64,000 bases of DNA from Actinomycetota bacterium (GTDB taxonomy: Bacteria; Actinomycetota; Actinomycetes; Streptosporangiales; Streptosporangiaceae). Below, in pieces: positions 20,661 through 62,304 of this stretch. The number at the start of each line of letters is the position of its first letter. Within the stretch, counting starts at the first letter, position 1. The notes beneath the pieces are model-generated. The model was given only the letters and a program-made list of their open reading frames with translations. It was not told the origin of the DNA and searched no databases. The DNA is taken from positions 1 to 64,000 of the forward strand of contig PMSU01000205.1 in assembly GCA_003168255.1 (NCBI GenBank). The letters are read 5' to 3'. A program made the position numbers and the translations under genes.

Positions 20661-20999
20661 ATGACGCTTGTGATCGGCGTTAGAGAGATAGACAAAGCGG
20701 CTGTGACGCCACTTGCGGTGGCTCGCTCGCTGAGGCTGCTCGGAACCCATGTCTCGAACTGGCGGAAACTACAGCGGCTGACCGCCGCCCAGCTTGCGGA
20801 GCGGGCCGGAATCTCCCGGGATACGCTGCGCGCCATCGAGCAGGGCAAGGGCACGGTGAGCACCGAGAACTTGCTCCGGGTGCTGCGCATCATCGGGATC
20901 CTCGACAGCGTCGTCGCGTCAGCTGACCCGTACCGGACCGACGTAGGCCGCCTGCGTGCGGACGAGATCCTGCCCCGGCGGGTGCGGGGTGATCGCTGA
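20661..20999 (+). CDS. hipB: HipB-like antitoxin (XRE HTH)
   Basis: A 112-residue protein with a clear XRE-type HTH (NWRKLQRLTAAQLAERAGIS, then RDTLRAIEQGKG), followed by a short C-terminal tail that would contact the toxin. HipB neutralises HipA and represses the operon. The stop and the hipA start overlap (TGATG). ATG 20661 is used; the hexamer TACAAT (20657-20662) overlaps it, so transcription could start near 20670, where an in-frame GTG would give a leaderless mRNA. Start choice is therefore uncertain by three codons. Confidence 0.85.
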   Translation: MTLVIGVREIDKAAVTPLAVARSLRLLGTHVSNWRKLQRLTAAQLAERAGISRDTLRAIEQGKGTVSTENLLRVLRIIGILDSVVASADPYRTDVGRLRADEILPRRVRGDR

Positions 21000-22249
21000 T
21001 GGCACGCGAGCCGGTCGAGGTCACCGTAGAGACTGACCGGCAGGAGATCACTGCGGGGACCCTGTGGATTCACGACCGGAGCGGGCAGAGCGCAACGTTT
21101 CGCTACACCGACGAGTACCTGACCAACCCGTACTCCTACGATCTCGACCCAGCGCTGCCCAAGTCGTCCGGCGTGTTCCAGACGCCCGCCGGAAAGCCGA
21201 TGTTCAACGCCTTCGCCGACAGCGCGCCCGACCGGTGGGGCCAGAATCTCATGCGCCGGGGCGAAAGGGAGCGTGCGGAGGCAGCCCACGCCATCTCGCG
21301 CACGCTGCACGAATCCGACTTCCTGCTGGGCGCGCGTGACGATGCCCGGCAAGGTGCTATCCGGTTCAGGATGCCCGGCACCCGCACGTATTACGCGGCC
21401 CATCGCAAACCCGTCCCGCGCCTGCTCGCGATGCCCAGGCTGCTGCACGCTGCCGACCGGCTCAATACCGAAGGATCGGCAGGCCCTGACATCGACGATC
21501 TCATCGACGCCGGCAGTTCGCTCGGCGGCGCCCGGCCCAAAGCCGCTGTCATCGACAGCTCCGGGCGGCTGGCAATCGCGAAGTTCCCGCGTTCAGGCAG
21601 CGACGGCTGGGATATGGGCGGGTGGGAGAAACTGGAGCTGAACCTGGCCCGGCGGGCAGGGTTGCATGTGGCCGAGTCCGAGCTCGTGCTCGTTGACGGC
21701 CGTCATGTGCACATCGTGAGCCGTTTCGATCGGGAGGACGGGAAGCGGATCGGGTTTGCCAGCGCGCTCACCATGCTGGAGGCCTCAGATCGCGAGCAGC
21801 ACAGTTACCTGGAGATAGCCGACGTGATCGAGCGTCACTCCGATCGCCCCGAGGCCGACCTTCATGAGCTCTATCGCCGCATTGTCTTCTCTATCCTCAC
21901 CGGCAACACCGATGACCACCTGCGCAACCACGGGTTCCTGCGGTGCCGGCGAGGGTGGACCCTCTCCCCCGGTTACGACCTGAACCCCAACCCCGATTCT
22001 CCGGGCCGGCTGCAAACCGCGATCGACCTCGACAACTCCGACGCCAGCATCGAGACGACGCTGTCGGTCGCCGGCTATTTCCGGCTGTCCGCCAGGGCGG
22101 CGAGTTCCGTCATCTCCGGAATCGAGGAGGCGACCCGCTACTGGCAGCGCGAGGCAGCGGAACTCGGTCTGGCTGGGCAGGAGATTGACCGGATGGCGAT
22201 CGCGTTCGACTCTGATCAGCGCGGCGTTGCCCGCACGCTACGTGCTTAG
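20999..22249 (+). CDS. hipA: HipA-like serine/threonine kinase toxin
   Basis: A 416-residue HipA-family kinase. HipA kinases phosphorylate glutamyl-tRNA synthetase or other translation targets and cause growth arrest. Visible are the ejectable glycine loop GSSLGGARPKA (172-182), the ATP-contact Lys in AIAKFPR (K195), HIVSRFDR (238-245), the catalytic NTDDHLRNHG (303-312, D306 and N310) and the metal-binding PGYD (D327). It is full length, including the N-terminal Couple_hipA subdomain (about 1-115). It overlaps hipB by one base, and its end overlaps the convergent TetR gene by 12 bp. All key residues are present, so the toxin is probably active. Confidence 0.9.
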   Translation: MAREPVEVTVETDRQEITAGTLWIHDRSGQSATFRYTDEYLTNPYSYDLDPALPKSSGVFQTPAGKPMFNAFADSAPDRWGQNLMRRGERERAEAAHAISRTLHESDFLLGARDDARQGAIRFRMPGTRTYYAAHRKPVPRLLAMPRLLHAADRLNTEGSAGPDIDDLIDAGSSLGGARPKAAVIDSSGRLAIAKFPRSGSDGWDMGGWEKLELNLARRAGLHVAESELVLVDGRHVHIVSRFDREDGKRIGFASALTMLEASDREQHSYLEIADVIERHSDRPEADLHELYRRIVFSILTGNTDDHLRNHGFLRCRRGWTLSPGYDLNPNPDSPGRLQTAIDLDNSDASIETTLSVAGYFRLSARAASSVISGIEEATRYWQREAAELGLAGQEIDRMAIAFDSDQRGVARTLRA

Positions 22250-41419: not shown

Positions 41420-43417
41420 ATGGGTAAAGTGCCTACCGAGGCTGATCCCCGCGAGCCTCTGCGGAGGTACGTGATCAGCGACGAGGAGATCCGCCATCTT
41501 GAGGCGGTGCTAGCCGGCGCAGCGCGCTCGCAGTTGCGCCCGCCCGCCGTTCTCGGCAGGCTGACCGAGCTCTACCTCCAGCCATCGGCCAGCAGGCAGC
41601 CGGACCGGGCGCTTGAGCTGGTCGAGCAGGGCCTGGCCATGGTCGCCAACGGTGACCCGCTCTACCCCAAGCTGCTGCACTACACGGCGGCAGCGCTGCG
41701 AGCCGTCCAGACGTCGCCGGCCGGAGCGCTCGGGCACGGCGGCCGGGCGGCCAGGCTCGACCGCGACGCCTGGCTGCTCAGCCTGGATCCCGTGCCGGGC
41801 GATGCGGTGCTCTTCGCCGGGCAATGGGGCGACTGGGCGTGGCAGAACGAAGTCTGGGACGAGGCGGCAGAGGCCTACGAGGGCGCCGCGCTGGCGCTGA
41901 CCCGGATCGTGCTCCGGTCCACTCCCGGCATCATGGCCCGGCTGGACCTGCTCAGCCAGCACGCCAACCTGGCCCCCCGCAGCGCTTTCGCCTATGCGCG
42001 CATCGAGCGAGCGAAGGAGGCGGTCACCGTGCTCGAGCGGGCGGGTGACCTGCTGTCCGCGTTCGGCTCGCAGCGGCGGGACCTCGACAAGCTCGGCGCG
42101 ATGGGCAAGACGGAGCTGCGCGACCGGCTTCTCGCGGTCAACAGCGAGTCCGTGGCGCAGAACTCCGCACAGCCCGACTCCTACGGTCGTTCGCCAGTCA
42201 GCAAGCAGCAGGCCCAGACGCGGGTGGACGCCATGGTCAAGGAGATCCGCGCGATCCCTGGAATGGCCAGGTTCGCCACGCCCGCCGGGTGGGCCGACGT
42301 CAGCGACGTGGCGCAGGCCCAGCCCATCGCCTATCTCGCGACGACAGACAAGGGGACGGTGGTCCTGACCGTCACGCCAGCGGCGAAGAGCATCGCATGC
42401 CTGCCGGTGACGCAACAGGACATCCTGTCCGCGGTGCGCGAGTTCTTCCTGTCCGAATACGAAGACGGTCCCGCGGATTCACACGATGCGCTGATGAAGG
42501 CGCTTGACTGGCTCAGCCGGCTCATGTTCAGCGTGTTCCAGGCGGTTGGCGGCGACCATCGGGTCCTCCTGGTGCCGTTCGGCCTGCTGGCCCAGCTGCC
42601 GCTGCACGCCGCATGCGCGATGCTCCCCGCCACCGACACCCAGCCCGCCCGTAACCATTTCTGGTTCCACCCGTCGCATGTGACCTACGTGGGATCCGCG
42701 CGCTCGTGGCTGGCCTGCAAGGAGCGCTCCAGACAGGTCCGCGTCCCGGGTGCGCTCGTCGTCAACAGTCCCGCGCCGCTGCCCGCGGAATTCGACGAGC
42801 TGCTGCTGTCCGACTTCGAGCGAGACGTGGTCGCCAGCCATTTCCCTGTCACCGAGCTGACCGGTACGGACGCGACCGATGACCGGATACTCGCTGCGCT
42901 GCCCGAGGCCGACGTCGCCCACTTCATCTGCCATGGCCAGATCGACAAGAGGCTCCGCTACACGGGGGTGCTCATTGTCGCCGATCAGAAGATCTTGACG
43001 GTCAGGCACCTGGAGAACTTGCCGGGGCTGACCGCCCGGCTCGTTTTCCTGTCGGCCTGCACCAGCGGCATGACCGCCCTCGGGGTCGCGCAGCTGGCGA
43101 GCATCCCGACGGCGCTCGTGGGCGTCGGCGCGGCCGCCGTGATCGCCACGTTCTGGAAGACGGACGAGATGGCGACCCTGCTGGTCGTGACCCGGTTCCA
43201 CGACCTCTGGCAGGGCGGCCGCGGAGCTGACCTCGCCGAGGCTCTCGGGCAGGCTCGGGTATGGCTGGCCACGTCGCGGGCCGATGTGCTCCGCGCCGCG
43301 GTCCCGGCGGCCGCGCTGGCCGGCCGGGCGGGACAGCGGCTCGCCAGCTGCCAGGATGAGGACCAGCCGTACAGTCACCCGTGGTTCTGGGCGCCTTTCT
43401 TCCTCCTCGGAGCATGA
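41420..43417 (+). CDS. CHAT-domain caspase-like protease
   Basis: A 665-residue protein. Residues about 20-250 are helical and may form TPR-like repeats (for example AENEVWDEAAEAYEGAAL-like segments). The C-terminal half is a CHAT peptidase domain with the caspase-type dyad intact: H505 in AHFICHGQ and C547 in FLSACTSGM. CHAT proteases act in bacterial defence and programmed cell death (for example with gasdermins or in type III-E CRISPR). I start at ATG 41420 (MGKVPTEADPREPLRRYVIS); the frame is open further upstream through a probable promoter (41310-41335). It is followed 14 bp later by an unknown gene and then by an inactive sedolisin-like gene, forming one operon. Confidence 0.85.
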   Translation: MGKVPTEADPREPLRRYVISDEEIRHLEAVLAGAARSQLRPPAVLGRLTELYLQPSASRQPDRALELVEQGLAMVANGDPLYPKLLHYTAAALRAVQTSPAGALGHGGRAARLDRDAWLLSLDPVPGDAVLFAGQWGDWAWQNEVWDEAAEAYEGAALALTRIVLRSTPGIMARLDLLSQHANLAPRSAFAYARIERAKEAVTVLERAGDLLSAFGSQRRDLDKLGAMGKTELRDRLLAVNSESVAQNSAQPDSYGRSPVSKQQAQTRVDAMVKEIRAIPGMARFATPAGWADVSDVAQAQPIAYLATTDKGTVVLTVTPAAKSIACLPVTQQDILSAVREFFLSEYEDGPADSHDALMKALDWLSRLMFSVFQAVGGDHRVLLVPFGLLAQLPLHAACAMLPATDTQPARNHFWFHPSHVTYVGSARSWLACKERSRQVRVPGALVVNSPAPLPAEFDELLLSDFERDVVASHFPVTELTGTDATDDRILAALPEADVAHFICHGQIDKRLRYTGVLIVADQKILTVRHLENLPGLTARLVFLSACTSGMTALGVAQLASIPTALVGVGAAAVIATFWKTDEMATLLVVTRFHDLWQGGRGADLAEALGQARVWLATSRADVLRAAVPAAALAGRAGQRLASCQDEDQPYSHPWFWAPFFLLGA

Positions 43418-43431
43418 AAAGGAGATCATCA

Positions 43432-44193
43432 ATGGCACCACTTCCGGTGGCCTACATGAAGGCGGTCAGGGACATCACCGGCTTCTGGGGGGCATATCCC
43501 CTGGCCCAGGAACTGTCGCCGGGAGCCTACGGCCGCCGGGTCCAGGGCGTGTTCATCGGTGACGGCCAGCTGTCCGATTTCCCTGGCTACGACGCGGCCG
43601 CCTACGCAGTGGCGGAAGCGCCGGTGCGCAGCCCGGCGGACGCCTGGCTGTCCGAGGGCGCCAGCGTGGAGCAGCTTGCCGCCGCAGCAGGCGGCCCCGC
43701 CCTGCCGGCCGCCGCGGGCCTGCGGCTGCGTTTCAGCCGGGCCGAACAGGCGGCTTTCGCCTGCCGCAACGGACGCCAGTGGGCCTTCAAGAACCTCCGC
43801 CAGGTGAAGGATCACTTGCTATGGCTGCACCAGCAAGGCCAGTGGGATCCCAGGGACATCCTGGTGACGCACGTGATGAAGACAGACGCGGCGTGGCTGT
43901 TCTACTCCAGCCAGAGCGGTCAGTCGGTGGATCTGTCGCTGGAGGTCACCCCGGGTCCGGCGGCCGCGGCGGAGCTGCTCAAGGCGGCCGTAGGCAGCGG
44001 CAAGGTCGAGATCGGGTACGGCGGGCTGGCCTCCTCGGGCTACTCGTCGGTGATAGACGGGCCAGCCACACCGCTGTTCCAGGCAATCCGGATCAAGAGA
44101 TTCCCGCGAGCGCACGCGGACGTCGTCGTGAGAGGACCGGGAGACTTCGACGAGGCGACCTTCGGCGACCCTGACGAGACCGAAGGCGAGTAG
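43432..44193 (+). CDS. Unknown protein between the CHAT and S53-like genes
   Basis: A 253-residue protein that I do not recognise. ATG 43432 is preceded by AAAAGGAG 7 nt upstream. It has no signal peptide and no clear membrane helix. The central part, QWAFKNLRQVKDHLLWLHQQ, then ILVTHVMKTDAAWLFYSSQS, looks like a mixed alpha/beta or beta-sandwich fold, and the C-terminus is acidic (GDFDEATFGDPDETEGE). Tight spacing on both sides (14 bp and 4 bp) says it works with the CHAT protease and the S53-like protein. It may be the substrate, inhibitor or effector of the protease; none of these is shown by the sequence. Confidence 0.7.
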   Translation: MAPLPVAYMKAVRDITGFWGAYPLAQELSPGAYGRRVQGVFIGDGQLSDFPGYDAAAYAVAEAPVRSPADAWLSEGASVEQLAAAAGGPALPAAAGLRLRFSRAEQAAFACRNGRQWAFKNLRQVKDHLLWLHQQGQWDPRDILVTHVMKTDAAWLFYSSQSGQSVDLSLEVTPGPAAAAELLKAAVGSGKVEIGYGGLASSGYSSVIDGPATPLFQAIRIKRFPRAHADVVVRGPGDFDEATFGDPDETEGE

Positions 44194-44197
44194 GCCG

Positions 44198-45283
44198 ATG
44201 AGCACGACCTCGGCCCAGCCGCACGGGCGGATCCTGCCCGCTCCCGTAGCCCGGGCCGGCGAACGACCCGGGTTCGACATGCGGGCTATCGCGTCGTACT
44301 ACGCGTTCCCGGCCCGTTTCGACGGGACGGGGACGACGATCGCCATCCTCAGCCTCTACGGCGGATTCCGCCGGTCCGATCTCGACGCGTACTTCTCGTC
44401 GGTAGGACTTGGCACCCCGGCGATCGACGTCATTCCGGTCGGCGGCGCGGCCAACAACCCGGTCGCCGACCCTCGTGCCAACGTCGAGCTGGTGATGAGC
44501 CTGGAGATGCTCGGCTCGATCGCTCCGGGAGCCCGGCTGGCCGTCTACATCGCCCCCAACACCGAGCAGGGTGTGGTCGATGGCCTCAGTAAGGCCATCT
44601 TCGACCAGGAGCACCACGCGGACATTCTCTGCCTGACATGGGCAGCCGACGAGGCCGGCGCCAGCGGCATGCTCGCCAGGATGATCGACGACAGCATGAA
44701 GACCGCCCTCGTCCGGGGCCTCCCGGTCTGCGCGCCGGCCGGCCTCTGGGCTGACGGGAAACTCCGGCCGACGTACCCCGGCTCGCACCCGCTGGTACTG
44801 GCGTGCGGCGCCACCCGCGCGGTGCGCCAGGGGTCAGGACTGACCGAGCAGCCGATGATGGCCACGGCGAGCCAGCCGGCAGGCAGCGTCCTGTGGCCGA
44901 TGGACCGCTGGCAGGCCAAGGGGATCAAGCGGGCCGTCCGCCGAGCCGTGCGCGGACGGCTGGTGCCCGACGTGAGCGCACTGGCCGACCCGGAGATCGG
45001 CTACCGGTGCTACGTCAACGGCCAGTGGGTCAGCGTCAGTGACCCGGGGATAGCGTCCTGCCTGTGGGCGGGCCTGCTCGCCCGCCTGCACCAGGCTCGC
45101 GGCCGTCCCTGGGGCATGGTAGGTAGCCTTTACTCGACGCTCGGGCCGGCCGGCACCCTGACCGCGGTGCCCGCGGCCAAGGCGGGATCGAGGCCGGCGC
45201 CAGCCTGGGACAGCCGCGTCGGCTGGGGAAGCCCGGACGGAGAACGCATGCTGGCGAAGCTCACGGCAGTCAGCCGCCGATGA
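44198..45283 (+). CDS. Sedolisin-fold (S53-like) protein with all but one catalytic residue lost
   Basis: A 361-residue protein with the S53 fold: IAILSLYGGFRRSDLDAYFS (48-67), SIAPGARLAVYIAPNTEQGV (107-126), PGSHPLVLACGATRA and LWAGLLARL. In active sedolisins the residues are Glu and Asp (ExxxD), an oxyanion Asp (SGD) and Ser (GTS). Here Glu is kept (E97), but Asp becomes S101 (ELVMSLE), the oxyanion Asp becomes Leu (APAGLW, L183) and the Ser position is Gly (SDPGIASCLW, G284). There is no prodomain or signal peptide, so it is probably cytoplasmic. Third gene of the CHAT operon, 4 bp after its neighbour. I infer a pseudoprotease acting as binding or sensing module. Confidence 0.8.
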   Translation: MSTTSAQPHGRILPAPVARAGERPGFDMRAIASYYAFPARFDGTGTTIAILSLYGGFRRSDLDAYFSSVGLGTPAIDVIPVGGAANNPVADPRANVELVMSLEMLGSIAPGARLAVYIAPNTEQGVVDGLSKAIFDQEHHADILCLTWAADEAGASGMLARMIDDSMKTALVRGLPVCAPAGLWADGKLRPTYPGSHPLVLACGATRAVRQGSGLTEQPMMATASQPAGSVLWPMDRWQAKGIKRAVRRAVRGRLVPDVSALADPEIGYRCYVNGQWVSVSDPGIASCLWAGLLARLHQARGRPWGMVGSLYSTLGPAGTLTAVPAAKAGSRPAPAWDSRVGWGSPDGERMLAKLTAVSRR

Positions 45284-47850: not shown

Positions 47851-48415
47851 GGCGTTAGGGCAGCTTTGTCGATCTGGATCAGCTGGCAGGCGGGCTGCGC
47901 GGGAGCGCCGTCGACCCTAGAGACGGCAGGTTCTGCTGGTGGCTTGGCGGCTGGGTGCGGCGGACCGGTTCACGTCACCCACCTGCGGAAGGAGGACCAG
48001 ATCGCTGCGCGCGGGATGCCACATCCGTGAGCGCAAAGGTGTCGCCAGCTCACCCGCCGCCATGCGGTTTTCGCCGATGGTCAATCCGCCGACGGCGTAA
48101 CCCGCGGGCGTGCAGCGGCGCCAGATGCGGCCAAGCGGCGCATTGGCTGCCCGCCGGATGCGCGCGCCGGCGAGGAGTCGCTGGGCACTTTCGTGGTCGC
48201 CGGCGGTTGGGCATGCTAGGACGGCGACCTGGCGGTGGGCGCCGAAGACCCAGCCGAGGCCGTCGACGACTCCTCCCAGTGGTGGTGGGCCGCCATGGCC
48301 CGCCGCACTGGCCCGACGAGGACCGCCACGGCCGAGATTCCCGCGCCCCCAAGCCAGGTCGGCAGCGCGGGCTAGGCGGGAGCAGAGGACAGCGGTCACC
48401 AGAGAGGAGGAATTC
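47851..48415. other. Region without a confirmed gene; one weak minus-strand frame
   Basis: About 565 bp. A minus-strand frame ending at 47917 has reasonable codon use near RRAANAPLGRIWRRCTPAGY and GGLTIGENRMAAGELATPLR, but no clean start and no recognised family; it could be a decayed gene. The plus strand ends in AGAGGAGGAATTC, a very strong ribosome-binding site for the gene at 48416. Confidence 0.35.
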
Positions 48416-49264
48416 ATGCAGGCAATTGAGTCCGATGATGTGACGCCTTTACCGGCATGGCGGCACAGCATTGCTGCGTGCCGCCGCGCTGTCCCTCGAT
48501 TGCGCGCCCCGGGCCCGGACCTGGATGACGCCGGTGCGTGCCAGGTGTGGCTGCGCCAGGTTTGGACACTGCCGGGGTTGGCTGAGGCGGTCCGTCAGGC
48601 AACCCCGGGCCTGGCCGGCCGCATTGACGAAATAATCGCCGGCCAGGCCGCCTCCAGTAAGCCGGTCCGGCGCGCCGCCAGGTCCGCGCTGCGGTACGTG
48701 GCGCGGGCAGCCGGCCGGCCCACCCCGTTCGGGCTGTTCGCTGGCGTGTCCCCCGTCGAGGTGGCAGCCCAGACGCATGTGCGGTGGGGCACAGATCACA
48801 GGCCGGTTGCCCGCGCCGACGCGCTCTGGCTCTCGGACGTCATCGACCGCCTGGAAACCGATCCCGCACTGCTGGATCTGCTGGACGTCGTCTTCACCGA
48901 CGTGGCCGCAGCACGAGGCGGGCGGCTGCAAATCTGCCACGGAGCTGGCCTGGTGAGCATCCGCGAGACCGCCGCGGTCCGCGCCGCACGGGACGCCATG
49001 GCCGCAGGCAGTCGTGAGATCGTTGTTACCGATCAGATGATCACGGCGTTCGCTGGCAGAGACAGCGCGGCGCAACTGCCGCCGCACATCGAGATGGCTG
49101 CCCGCATCCACGCCGCCAGCCCTGAGGCCCTCGACCGGGGCGAGTTCACGCTCATGATCGGGCTGGCCCGGTCGGCGGGCACCCTGACCTCGCGGTTCAG
49201 CGCTGGCGAGGCGAGCGCCAGCCTGGCGGCACCATGCACCCGCCTGGTGATCGCCTACACCTGA
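48416..49264 (+). pseudogene. Internally deleted LanB-type lanthipeptide dehydratase
   Basis: The first 220 or so residues match the N-terminal domain of lantibiotic/thiopeptide dehydratases, including the hallmark SALRYVARAAGRPTPFGLFA (then GVSP). LanB glutamylation domains normally run about 700-1000 residues; here only 282 remain. The end (EFTLMIGLARSAGTLTSRFS) resembles a later part of LanB (the AGTxTGRF region), so a large internal segment seems deleted in frame. A strong GAGGAGG precedes ATG 48416, so it may still be translated. No precursor peptide, LanC cyclase or transporter is adjacent. Function as a dehydratase is very unlikely. Confidence 0.65.
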
Positions 49265-60411: not shown

Positions 60412-62304
60412 GTGAGCGTGGCTGATCCGCGACCAGCGGGCGACCTGTCCGCGGTGCTGATGCCGTATCTGCCTCTGCTCGGCGCCCTGCGGCGAGGGGC
60501 TGCCGTCGATGCGGACCGGACGAGCCTGGTCGAAGCCGCCGCGGAGATATGGAGCAGGCCGGGATTCGACATCTTCCTGTCCAGGCCGAGCCTCGGGTTC
60601 GAGCCGTTCGACTACCAGTGGCAGACCGCGCAGACCGTGCTGCGCCGGATGCGGGGGCGGGCGATCCTGGCCGACGAGGTCGGGCTGGGCAAGACGATCG
60701 AGGCCGGGCTGGTCCTGTCGGAACTGCGGATGCGCGGCCTGGGCGACCGGGCCCTGGTGGTGGTGCCCGCGGGACTGACCGAGCAATGGCGGGAGGAGCT
60801 GGAGCGGAAGTTCGCGCTGCCAGCCACCATCGCCGCCCCGGCGGAATGGGACACCGGCAGCCACCATCCGGTGGTGATCGTCTCCCTGGCGGCCGCGCGC
60901 CGCGAGCCGCTCAAGGCGGCGCTGACGGACCAGCCGTGGGACGTCATCATCATGGATGAGGCCCACCGGCTGCGCAATCCGCGCAGCGCGTCGGGCCGGC
61001 TGGCCAGGACGCTGAGCGCGCGGTACCTGCTGCTGCTCACCGCCACTCCGGTCGAGAACAGGCTGCAGGATCTGTACGAGCTGGTGAGCCTGGTCGCCCC
61101 TGGCCTGCTCGGCACCCCGGCGCAGTTCCGCGCCCAGCATGGCAGCGGCGATCCTGGTGCGCCGCGTGACATCTCCGGGCTGCGGGCCAGGACCAGGGAG
61201 GTGATGGTCCGCCACCGGCGCAGCGAGGTGAGCCTGATGCTGCCGCAGCGGCTGGCCGAGACCGTGCTGGTAACTCCGACAGCGGCGGAAGCGGCCCTGT
61301 ATACGCAGATTGCCAGCCGGATCAGGCAGGAGGCCAGGGGCGCGCCGCAAGCCAGGCGGCTGACCCTGCGCAGTCTGGCCCGGCTGGCCGGCTCGAGCCC
61401 GGCCGCGGTGGCGCCGACCCTGGCCAAGGTGGGCTGGGCTGATCTCGCCCGGCAGGCCGCCGCGATCGGCTCGCCGAGCAAGATCGCGGAGCTGGTGACC
61501 CGGCTGCGCGCTGCTGGCTCAAACAGTGCTAGCTCACCCGGCGCGGGCTCACCCGGCGCGGGCTCACCCAGTGCTGGCCCAAATAGCGCTGGCCCGGAGA
61601 AGGTGCTCGTGTTCACCGCCTTCCGGCAGACCCTGGAGCTGATGGCCGGCGAACTGGCCAGGCAGGGCATCCCGGCCGTGGCCTACCACGGGAGCCTGGC
61701 CCGGCTGGACAAGGAGAAGGCGATCGGGGCCTTCCGCGACGAGGTGCCGGTCATGCTCAGCACCGAGTCGGCCGGCGAGGGCCGCAACCTGCAGTTCTGC
61801 CACATGATGATCAACGTCGACCTGCCGTGGAATCCGATGCAGATCGAGCAGCGGCTCGGCCGGCTGCACCGGGTCGGCCAGACCCGCGAGGTGCTGCTGA
61901 CCAACCTGGTCGCCCGCGGCACCATCGAGCAGCGCATCCGGTCCCGGCGCGCCGCGGATGTTCGGCAGGCTGCCCGAGCCGGACACCGATCTCGACCCGG
62001 TGGCGGTCAGGCTCTGGCGAAAAGCCCTTGCGTCGCACGGGCTCCCGCTCACCCTGCGCTGCCTGGCCGCCTGGTGGCGGATCGGCGACGGTCCCGAGCT
62101 GCTGGCCCGGCACCGGCCTGGCGTGCTGGCCGCGGCCATCCACCGGATGGTCGGCTACCGGGCGGGCGAGGCCGGGATCACCCACGACGCGATCGCCGGC
62201 CTGTACGGGGTCACCCCCGGCGAGACCCGCGCGATCACCCAGCTGCTGCAAGCCCGGCTGAAGCTGACCTCGGTCCGACCCTGGTAACGAGAGGACGGAC
62301 GTGA
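60412..62304 (+). CDS. SNF2-family DEAH helicase; C-terminus out of frame after about 61940
   Basis: A Swi2/Snf2-type ATPase: Walker A in LADEVGLGKTIEAGL (about residues 86-100), DEAH box in IIMDEAHRLRNP (about 181-192), LLLTATPVENRLQDLYELVS (motif III) and the second RecA lobe with VFTAFRQTLE, STESAGEGRNLQFC and EQRLGRLHRVGQTREV (motif VI). Between the lobes is a repetitive Ser/Pro/Gly linker (SPGAG repeats, about 366-386). The family remodels or translocates on DNA. After ARGTIEQRI (about 61937) homology ends, and the remaining 120 residues are an out-of-frame reading of the next gene, so the normal C-terminus is lost by fusion or deletion. GTG 60412 or GTG 60418 starts it. It may be a defence-linked helicase, given vapBC and pglX debris beside it. 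Confidence 0.75.
   Translation: MSVADPRPAGDLSAVLMPYLPLLGALRRGAAVDADRTSLVEAAAEIWSRPGFDIFLSRPSLGFEPFDYQWQTAQTVLRRMRGRAILADEVGLGKTIEAGLVLSELRMRGLGDRALVVVPAGLTEQWREELERKFALPATIAAPAEWDTGSHHPVVIVSLAAARREPLKAALTDQPWDVIIMDEAHRLRNPRSASGRLARTLSARYLLLLTATPVENRLQDLYELVSLVAPGLLGTPAQFRAQHGSGDPGAPRDISGLRARTREVMVRHRRSEVSLMLPQRLAETVLVTPTAAEAALYTQIASRIRQEARGAPQARRLTLRSLARLAGSSPAAVAPTLAKVGWADLARQAAAIGSPSKIAELVTRLRAAGSNSASSPGAGSPGAGSPSAGPNSAGPEKVLVFTAFRQTLELMAGELARQGIPAVAYHGSLARLDKEKAIGAFRDEVPVMLSTESAGEGRNLQFCHMMINVDLPWNPMQIEQRLGRLHRVGQTREVLLTNLVARGTIEQRIRSRRAADVRQAARAGHRSRPGGGQALAKSPCVARAPAHPALPGRLVADRRRSRAAGPAPAWRAGRGHPPDGRLPGGRGRDHPRRDRRPVRGHPRRDPRDHPAAASPAEADLGPTLVTRGRT
61958..62287 (+). CDS. Protein fragment of unknown family overlapping the helicase tail
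   Basis: Frame +2 relative to the helicase; 109 residues with good codon bias (LRCLAAWWRIGDGPELLARH, IHRMVGYRAGEAGITHDAIA, GETRAITQLLQARLKL). It looks like genuine protein, probably the C-terminal part of a gene whose start was lost when it was joined to the helicase. ATG 61958 could still start it. Family not recognised. Confidence 0.5.
   Translation: MFGRLPEPDTDLDPVAVRLWRKALASHGLPLTLRCLAAWWRIGDGPELLARHRPGVLAAAIHRMVGYRAGEAGITHDAIAGLYGVTPGETRAITQLLQARLKLTSVRPW

Follow-up and report, generated by a model that had tools for sequence, protein, structure and literature searches.

The 64,000-nucleotide stretch analyzed here (the window), from the genome of a soil actinobacterium termed G000, carries three adjacent genes encoding a CHAT protease, a middle protein and an S53-type protein. 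The first two are read as a two-gene module in which a gasdermin-like effector activated by CHAT cleavage would bring about suicide of the cell, a reading to which we give a probability of roughly 0.6. Gasdermins are membrane pore formers that kill the cell. The evidence at the level of sequence comprises the gene layout, an intact protease dyad, recurrent pairing of the two gene families and, from the comparison of two genomes, purifying selection. The middle protein also belongs to a family of gasdermin-like proteins (GLPs), whose profile has a remote but statistically significant match to a bacterial gasdermin of solved structure. From these we infer the GLP fold, inhibition by its tail, cleavage, pore formation, the trigger and a role in phage defense. 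The three genes are as follows:

41420..43417, plus strand: TPR-like/CHAT caspase-family protease P0001, 665 amino acids (Pfam CHAT match)
43432..44193, plus strand: putative gasdermin-like protein P0002, 253 amino acids, probable pore-forming effector and CHAT substrate (family profile)
44198..45283, plus strand: pseudo-sedolisin P0003 with a kumamolisin-type S53 domain, 361 amino acids (kumamolisin match)

The CHAT Protease and the Middle Gene

The genes lie where the original prediction placed them, with 14 bp separating the CHAT gene from the middle gene and 4 bp separating the latter from the S53 gene. The coding score from our own gene caller is positive for all three, with a G+C content at third codon positions (GC3) of 0.86-0.88, and a GTG at 41471 provides an alternative start for the CHAT gene. 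P0001 matches the Pfam CHAT family with an E value of 7.5e-34, and the predicted catalytic dyad of His-505 (codon 42932-42934) and Cys-547 (codon 43058-43060) is intact as claimed, the two residues aligning with those of nine other GLP-paired CHAT proteins so that the pair is kept in 10/10. The N-terminal ~240 residues are predicted to be helical (helices within 21-246, with a predicted local distance difference test score, pLDDT, of 32-77 in this block) in an AlphaFold model that is otherwise poor (pLDDT 44.9).

A search of 297 genomes of the order for CHAT proteins gives 11 genomes with a match at E ≤ 1e-20, the window genome included. The closest relative of P0001 outside G000 occurs in genome G306 (63-64% identity), the remaining matches being 27-32% identical, and the two-sequence GLP profile finds no GLP neighbor at the CHAT relatives of approximately 30% identity within the order (loci L025-L033). 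G306 shows the same order of CHAT gene followed by middle gene, with the middle proteins 68% identical. Between G000 and G306 the middle gene has a ratio of nonsynonymous to synonymous substitution of 0.25 (Nei-Gojobori method, own script) and the CHAT gene one of 0.32, indicating that both encode maintained proteins. Among 60 genomes, comprising the window's own and its relatives, the middle protein is confined to G000, and it is found in one of the five genomes of the G306 genus, so that the gene is accessory. Outside the window G000 carries three more CHAT genes, on contigs C39, C88 and C151.

The GLP Family

P0002 has no significant match in Pfam, NCBIfam, PADLOC or PHROGs, in agreement with the unknown fold noted originally; the family to which it belongs is gasdermin-like by profile, which alters that part of the description. 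The family was assembled by successive searches. A two-sequence profile (A1) compared with 394 genomes matches 12 of them at E ≤ 0.01, including the window genome. Neighborhoods were examined for the matches in G069, G062, G501 and G036 (those in G344, G364, G372, G433, G468, G556 and G629 being left out), and G501 alone proved a true member, a 260-amino acid protein reached through a weak A1 match and adjoining a CHAT protein of 1,389 amino acids. The other three were rejected: a long called gene lies opposite the match in G069, that in G036 failed to recur, and none of the three has a CHAT-profile match nearby. The G501 protein as query leads to plasmid relatives in Embleya, Mesorhizobium and Gemmatirosa, and the Embleya and Mesorhizobium members lead in turn to one in Streptomyces avidinii. 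Profile searches added G547 from the class (three of 384 genomes matching, with G000 and G501 among them) and G1033, G1049, G1017 and G1045 from genus g56 (5/96 genomes, G501 included). A further profile search of 35 genomes matches two, namely G547 and G056, the latter containing a 90-amino acid N-terminal GLP fragment (L074:4448-4720, minus strand) with no CHAT neighbor, perhaps a decayed copy, which is left out of the locus counts below. No match was obtained in the plasmid collection with P0002 itself or the G547 member as query, in viral contigs by the patterns used, or in the phage collection with the Embleya member.

The resulting family has 12 near full-length members, of 244-275 amino acids in the 11 that were aligned, the weakest being G1045 with an E value of 2.7e-10 to the family hidden Markov model (HMM). 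P0002 scores 67.7 bits against an HMM of six members from which the window pair was excluded, compared with 10.0 bits for the best of 5000 shuffles, and hhalign places it with the family at 99.3% over 239 columns; P0002 therefore belongs to the GLP family. Ten of the 12 members come from actinobacteria, where most of the searching was done, and four from plasmid records, the plasmid collection having been searched on purpose.

Similarity to Bacterial Gasdermins

Comparison of the GLP family with the 177,635 sequences of the PDB points to 7n50, a solved bacterial gasdermin that comes from Vitiosangium. A 2-member profile does not match a gasdermin in the PDB. As the top match, 7n50 is found with an E value of 0.36 with six members, 0.0014 with eight and 6.3e-4 with 11, and it is the sole PDB match below E = 0.1 for the 8- and 11-member profiles, the next sequence for the latter having an E value of 0.79. 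The alignment is collinear over profile positions 23-171 (~150 residues), and the chain lengths of the known gasdermins 7n50 (259) and 7n52 (268) are similar to those of the GLPs. When the gasdermin segment was shuffled 5000 times, no shuffle scored as high as the real sequence, either with all eight members or in any of the eight leave-one-out sets. With hhalign the GLP profile and 7n50 give 56% over 146 columns, whereas the top five of 132 decoys do not exceed 2%, and 0/200 shuffles score as high. When a 159-residue piece of 7n50 is itself compared with the PDB, the gasdermin entries 9v2s (E = 0.61) and 7n52 (E = 0.77) are ranked under unrelated proteins, and a Pfam scan of a piece of 7n50 does not recognize a gasdermin either. 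Judged by these searches, the divergence among known bacterial gasdermins appears to be as large as the distance from the GLPs to 7n50.

Genes Adjoining the GLP Loci

The arrangement at each of the 12 loci is listed below, with gene boundaries taken from the record annotation or, in unannotated loci, from our own gene caller:

G000: CHAT gene first, 14 bp to GLP gene
G306: CHAT gene first, 37 bp to GLP gene
Embleya: CHAT gene first, 182 bp to GLP gene
G1017: CHAT gene first, 23 bp to GLP gene
G1033: CHAT gene first, 1-bp overlap with GLP gene
G501: GLP gene first, 59 bp to CHAT gene
G547: GLP gene first, 1-bp overlap with CHAT gene
G1049: GLP gene first, 18 bp to CHAT gene
Streptomyces avidinii: GLP and CHAT genes divergent, 232 bp apart
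Mesorhizobium: CHAT gene 2.5 kb from GLP gene, SUMF1-family gene nearby
Gemmatirosa: no CHAT gene; gene 30 bp upstream of GLP gene TIR-like at its start (by eye)
G1045: no CHAT gene in the 17 kb fetched; 1,474-amino acid STAND NTPase upstream of GLP gene

A CHAT gene lies within 3 kb at 10 of the 12 loci and is the next gene at nine, with gaps of -1 to 232 bp. CHAT genes are rare in the genomes concerned (19 matches at E ≤ 1e-8 across eight of them), and adjacency in 9/12 is therefore far beyond chance. Leaving out G000 and G306, the latter found via its CHAT gene, the count within 3 kb is 8/10, and three of the last four members, recruited after the pairing had been noticed, adjoin a CHAT gene. 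Both gene orders occur, so that the CHAT-GLP partnership probably formed more than once. Apart from its G306 ortholog, P0001 bears little resemblance to the other GLP-paired CHAT proteins: tblastn with P0001 finds nothing below E = 0.1 at six other loci and matches of 1e-9 inside the CHAT domain at two more. The CHAT, TIR-like and STAND company of the family, together with its gasdermin-like profile, supports the CHAT-centered cell death or defense module proposed in the original prediction.

In G547 and G1049 three-gene operons are formed by the GLP gene, the CHAT gene and a gene for a large protein of 1,752 or 1,718 residues, respectively (L062:9919-18123 and L071:1490-9510). The 1,752-residue protein has a sub-threshold NACHT match, and by their composition the two operons may be likened to a sensor-protease-effector series. 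The Mesorhizobium plasmid cluster (L056:7391-16359) contains GLP, SUMF1-family, ASCH, QueC-like and CHAT genes. The TIR-like gene in Gemmatirosa has a sub-threshold transglutaminase-like Pfam match (L057:8447-10744), and the STAND NTPase in G1045 (L073:2554-7952) matches NPHP3_N at 1.3e-6, its N terminus, viewed by eye, possibly being a nuclease.

The Pseudo-sedolisin P0003

P0003 matches kumamolisin with an E value of 2.6e-43 over the whole S53 domain. Ten S53 relatives from other genomes of the order, 35-39% identical proenzymes, were compared with it. The Glu/Asp/Asp/Ser set is kept in 10/10 of these, and P0003 has Glu-97, Ser-101, Leu-183 and Gly-284 at the equivalent positions. By the roles of the kumamolisin residues, Ser-101 replaces the catalytic Asp, Leu-183 the oxyanion Asp and Gly-284 the Ser. 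A second conserved Glu, also present in all 10 relatives, is Ser-52 in P0003, so that four of the five active-site residues are lost and Glu-97 alone is kept. The alignment places no catalytic Glu, Asp or Ser elsewhere in the protein, in keeping with the inactive S53 homolog originally described. The D(I/V)xxGxNG loop near the C terminus, which is the calcium site, is also largely absent. The open frame upstream of the S53 match extends for 164-367 residues in the relatives; in P0003 there are 22 residues before the ATG in a frame of 383 in all. P0003 thus lacks a prodomain, and inspection by eye shows no signal peptide, both as first proposed.

The distribution of the gene sets it apart from the other two. 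P0003 is the sole S53 match of G000 at E ≤ 1e-20. No ortholog was found among the 10 relatives of the order, the plasmid matches (at most 35% identity among 20 listed of 31) or, by the patterns used, viral contigs. An S53 gene is missing from the 13-21 kb stretches around 11/11 other GLP loci. In G306 no S53 match below E = 0.1 occurs in the 15.6 kb around the pair. A search of 297 genomes of the order for S53 (apparently the same set as in the CHAT search) gave 11 genomes at E ≤ 1e-20, and G306 is not one of them. The original prediction named a lack of conservation of the trio in related genomes as a ground for refutation, and this applies to the S53 gene, the CHAT and middle genes being recurrent. 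S53 is seen at one of the 12 GLP loci, that of G000, and the one tie between P0003 and the CHAT-GLP pair is the 4-bp gap.

Most likely this lineage gained P0003 as an accessory, such as a binding or inhibitory subunit, or else the protein is a passenger. The chances are about even that it is a captured piece of S53 sequence with lost catalytic residues and no link to CHAT or GLP, given its presence at a single GLP locus and its degenerate active site and C-terminal loop; the frame, intact for 361 codons and normal in its codon bias, speaks against this, as does the tight spacing, which suggests co-transcription. P0003 may instead be a recruited regulator, the passenger explanation being at least as likely.

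Weighing the Gasdermin Assignment

Several observations weigh against the gasdermin-based module. The link to gasdermins runs via the family, the window pair alone (P0002 and its G306 counterpart) not being significant against 7n50 (2.8 bits, with 96/5000 shuffles equal or better), and removal of the G547 member lowers the match to E = 0.56. Spurious matches of similar strength arise: P0002 alone matches an antibody light chain at E = 0.0048, an identity rejected for want of support from profile searches, and the 7n50 piece matches an unrelated repeat protein at 9.6e-6. Addition of 7n50 to the profile recruits no other gasdermin and nothing new. The AlphaFold model of the GLP pair, built from two sequences only, has a pLDDT of 31.6 and is uninformative on the fold. 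Ten of 11 members, including P0002, lack a Cys at positions 1-15, the G547 member having Cys-9; an N-terminal Cys for palmitoylation is conserved in most, not all, bacterial gasdermins (PMC9079055). In P0002 a tail of ~29 residues follows the region around the C-terminal TP(L/F) motif, which is conserved, and the tails of the 11 members extend 26-57 residues beyond the motif plus 12 columns. These tails are barely less conserved than the core (mean pairwise identity 20% versus 23%), and no recognizable cleavage site is found in the GLPs. At the locus itself a search found no promoter-like site. Terminator-like sites number three, against 1.1 expected; they are located before and within the CHAT gene, and none separates the genes. 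By eye the flanks have the appearance of metabolic or regulatory genes, unlike a defense island.

Bacterial gasdermins (bGSDMs) are marked by homology to a known gasdermin and by a neighboring caspase-family or other protease. The homology appears modestly at the family level, and the protease is present in the form of the CHAT gene within 3 kb at most loci. Because of the weak window pair, the dependence on G547, the spurious matches, the missing Cys, the tail and the uninformative AlphaFold model, P0002 is filed as gasdermin-like and not as a proven bGSDM.

The same observations bear on the alternative that the GLP is a partner or substrate of CHAT acting as an adaptor, inhibitor or signaling protein and not as a pore former, its cleavage having some other effect in the manner of Csx30 downstream of Craspase, with the gasdermin match being remote or spurious. 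The unconfirmed fold, the modest E value alongside chance matches of like size, the absent N-terminal Cys and the failure to recover another gasdermin favor it. We nevertheless consider it rather unlikely, as 7n50 stands alone in the PDB below E = 0.1 and grows stronger with added members, the alignment is collinear, and the GLPs are the size of known bacterial gasdermins.

The preferred CHAT-gasdermin module would operate as follows, each step past homology being conjectural. At rest the GLP would be kept inactive by its short C-terminal tail. The CHAT protein would use its TPR-like part to sense a signal of infection or damage, its protease would then remove the tail, and the freed GLP could oligomerize in the cell's own membrane and permeabilize it. 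The resulting death would constitute abortive infection or programmed death. P0002 is a likelier CHAT substrate than P0003.

A module serving development or kin conflict instead of phage defense, such as programmed lysis in filamentous actinomycetes, is likewise doubtful. It accords with the actinobacterial origin of most members (in a search made mostly there) and the metabolic appearance of the window flanks. The patchy spread (1/5 genomes in the G306 genus and 4/95 in genus g56 besides G501), the four copies on plasmid records and the company of TIR-like and STAND genes argue against it.

The S53 fold, which is subtilisin-like, gives the window locus a likeness to fungal gasdermin pairs controlled by S8 subtilisin-like proteases, from which it differs in that its S53 protein is catalytically dead and sits beside a CHAT protease. 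A true three-gene system in which the pseudo-S53 protein is a sensor, scaffold or restraint on CHAT or GLP is improbable, for although P0003 shares the strand across a 4-bp gap, keeps an open coding frame (GC3 0.87) despite lost catalysis, is the only S53 match of its genome at E ≤ 1e-20 and has a parallel in the subtilisin-like proteases that control some fungal gasdermins (PMC12881547), S53 is missing from the 13-21 kb covered around each of the other 11 GLP loci, the closest (G306) included, and no ortholog was seen. The proposal of the original prediction that the dead sedolisin serves as sensor, scaffold or substrate in such a system is unsupported because S53 occurs at 1/12 GLP loci.

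Comparison with Known Systems

Cleavage and activation of a bacterial gasdermin are attributed to TPR-CHAT in PMC9729208, and in Podospora anserina a gasdermin is activated by a TPR-CHAT protease (PMC12881547). As described in PMC9612521 and PMC9079055, bacterial gasdermins adjoin caspase-like proteases and are held inactive by a C-terminal peptide of ~20 residues, with C-type lectin genes sometimes nearby. The window locus shares with the bGSDM systems, as described in PMC9079055, PMC9612521, PMC10989679 and PMC9729208, a protease gene beside an effector of ~250-270 amino acids without a large C-terminal domain, together with the CHAT dyad and the profile similarity to 7n50. The GLPs differ in being unrecognized by the four profile libraries, in the missing N-terminal Cys and in being known here from sequence alone. 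Fungal gasdermin pairs are controlled by CHAT or S8 subtilisin-like proteases, the examples being HET-Q1/HET-Q2 and the Podospora anserina TPR-CHAT pair, and a TPR-CHAT gene next to that for a short gasdermin is a feature in common with the window locus (PMC12881547 and PMC10989679).

Csx29 of the type III-E CRISPR Craspase resembles P0001 in having a helical N-terminal part and a CHAT domain. P0001 matches the TPR-CHAT Csx29 model over residues 373-587 (E = 7e-10) at 38 bits, below the curated cut-off of 300, and the substrate of Csx29 is Csx30. No Cas genes were noticed by eye among the window gene calls, no dedicated search for Cas7-11/gRAMP having been made. With kumamolisin and the sedolisins P0003 shares homology over the whole domain, and it differs from them in the loss of the catalytic Asp, oxyanion Asp, Ser, prodomain and visible leader.

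Other Features of the Window

Three further loci are listed:

20718-22249, plus strand: helix-turn-helix gene (by eye) and, next to it downstream, one of the HipA family (HipA_C 5.8e-45), a HipBA-type toxin-antitoxin pair
48401-49264, plus strand: lantibiotic dehydratase, N-terminal piece only (Lant_dehydr_N 6.9e-55)
60412-62304, plus strand: SNF2-family helicase (4.1e-33) and, after it, a small uncharacterized gene close to the window end, a possible defense or repair locus

The dehydratase match is composed of two stretches, the best covering profile positions 3-154 of 649, and the piece looks truncated because its reading frame ends early.

Novelty and Implications

The pairing of a CHAT protease with a gasdermin is already known as a kind. 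As far as literature titles, abstract openings and the profile libraries show, the novel elements are a divergent family, the GLPs, together with its occurrence across actinomycetes, and the pseudo-S53 gene attached to the pair. The titles and abstract openings describe no such bacterial or actinobacterial gasdermin-CHAT pair, an earlier mention of a GLP in the primary bGSDM reports being possible, and no dead S53 protein in defense. A bolder view, which we regard as a long shot, holds that the GLPs form a clade hidden from the profile libraries, in actinomycetes and beyond, which with varied CHAT proteases and two large proteins (one NACHT-like) makes up inflammasome-like suicide operons of filamentous bacteria, the dead S53 protein having been recruited here as a regulator of the pair.

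If the GLPs are gasdermin-like, a pore-forming death effector has been missed by annotation in some members of a large actinobacterial genus (the 4/95 sampled genomes of g56 besides G501) and in other phyla, and the CHAT-gasdermin pairing would be a recurrent partnership of unrelated proteases, with CHAT-triggered pore formation open to direct test in laboratory actinomycetes. The pseudo-S53 protein would provide a test case for the recruitment of dead proteases as regulators of death modules.

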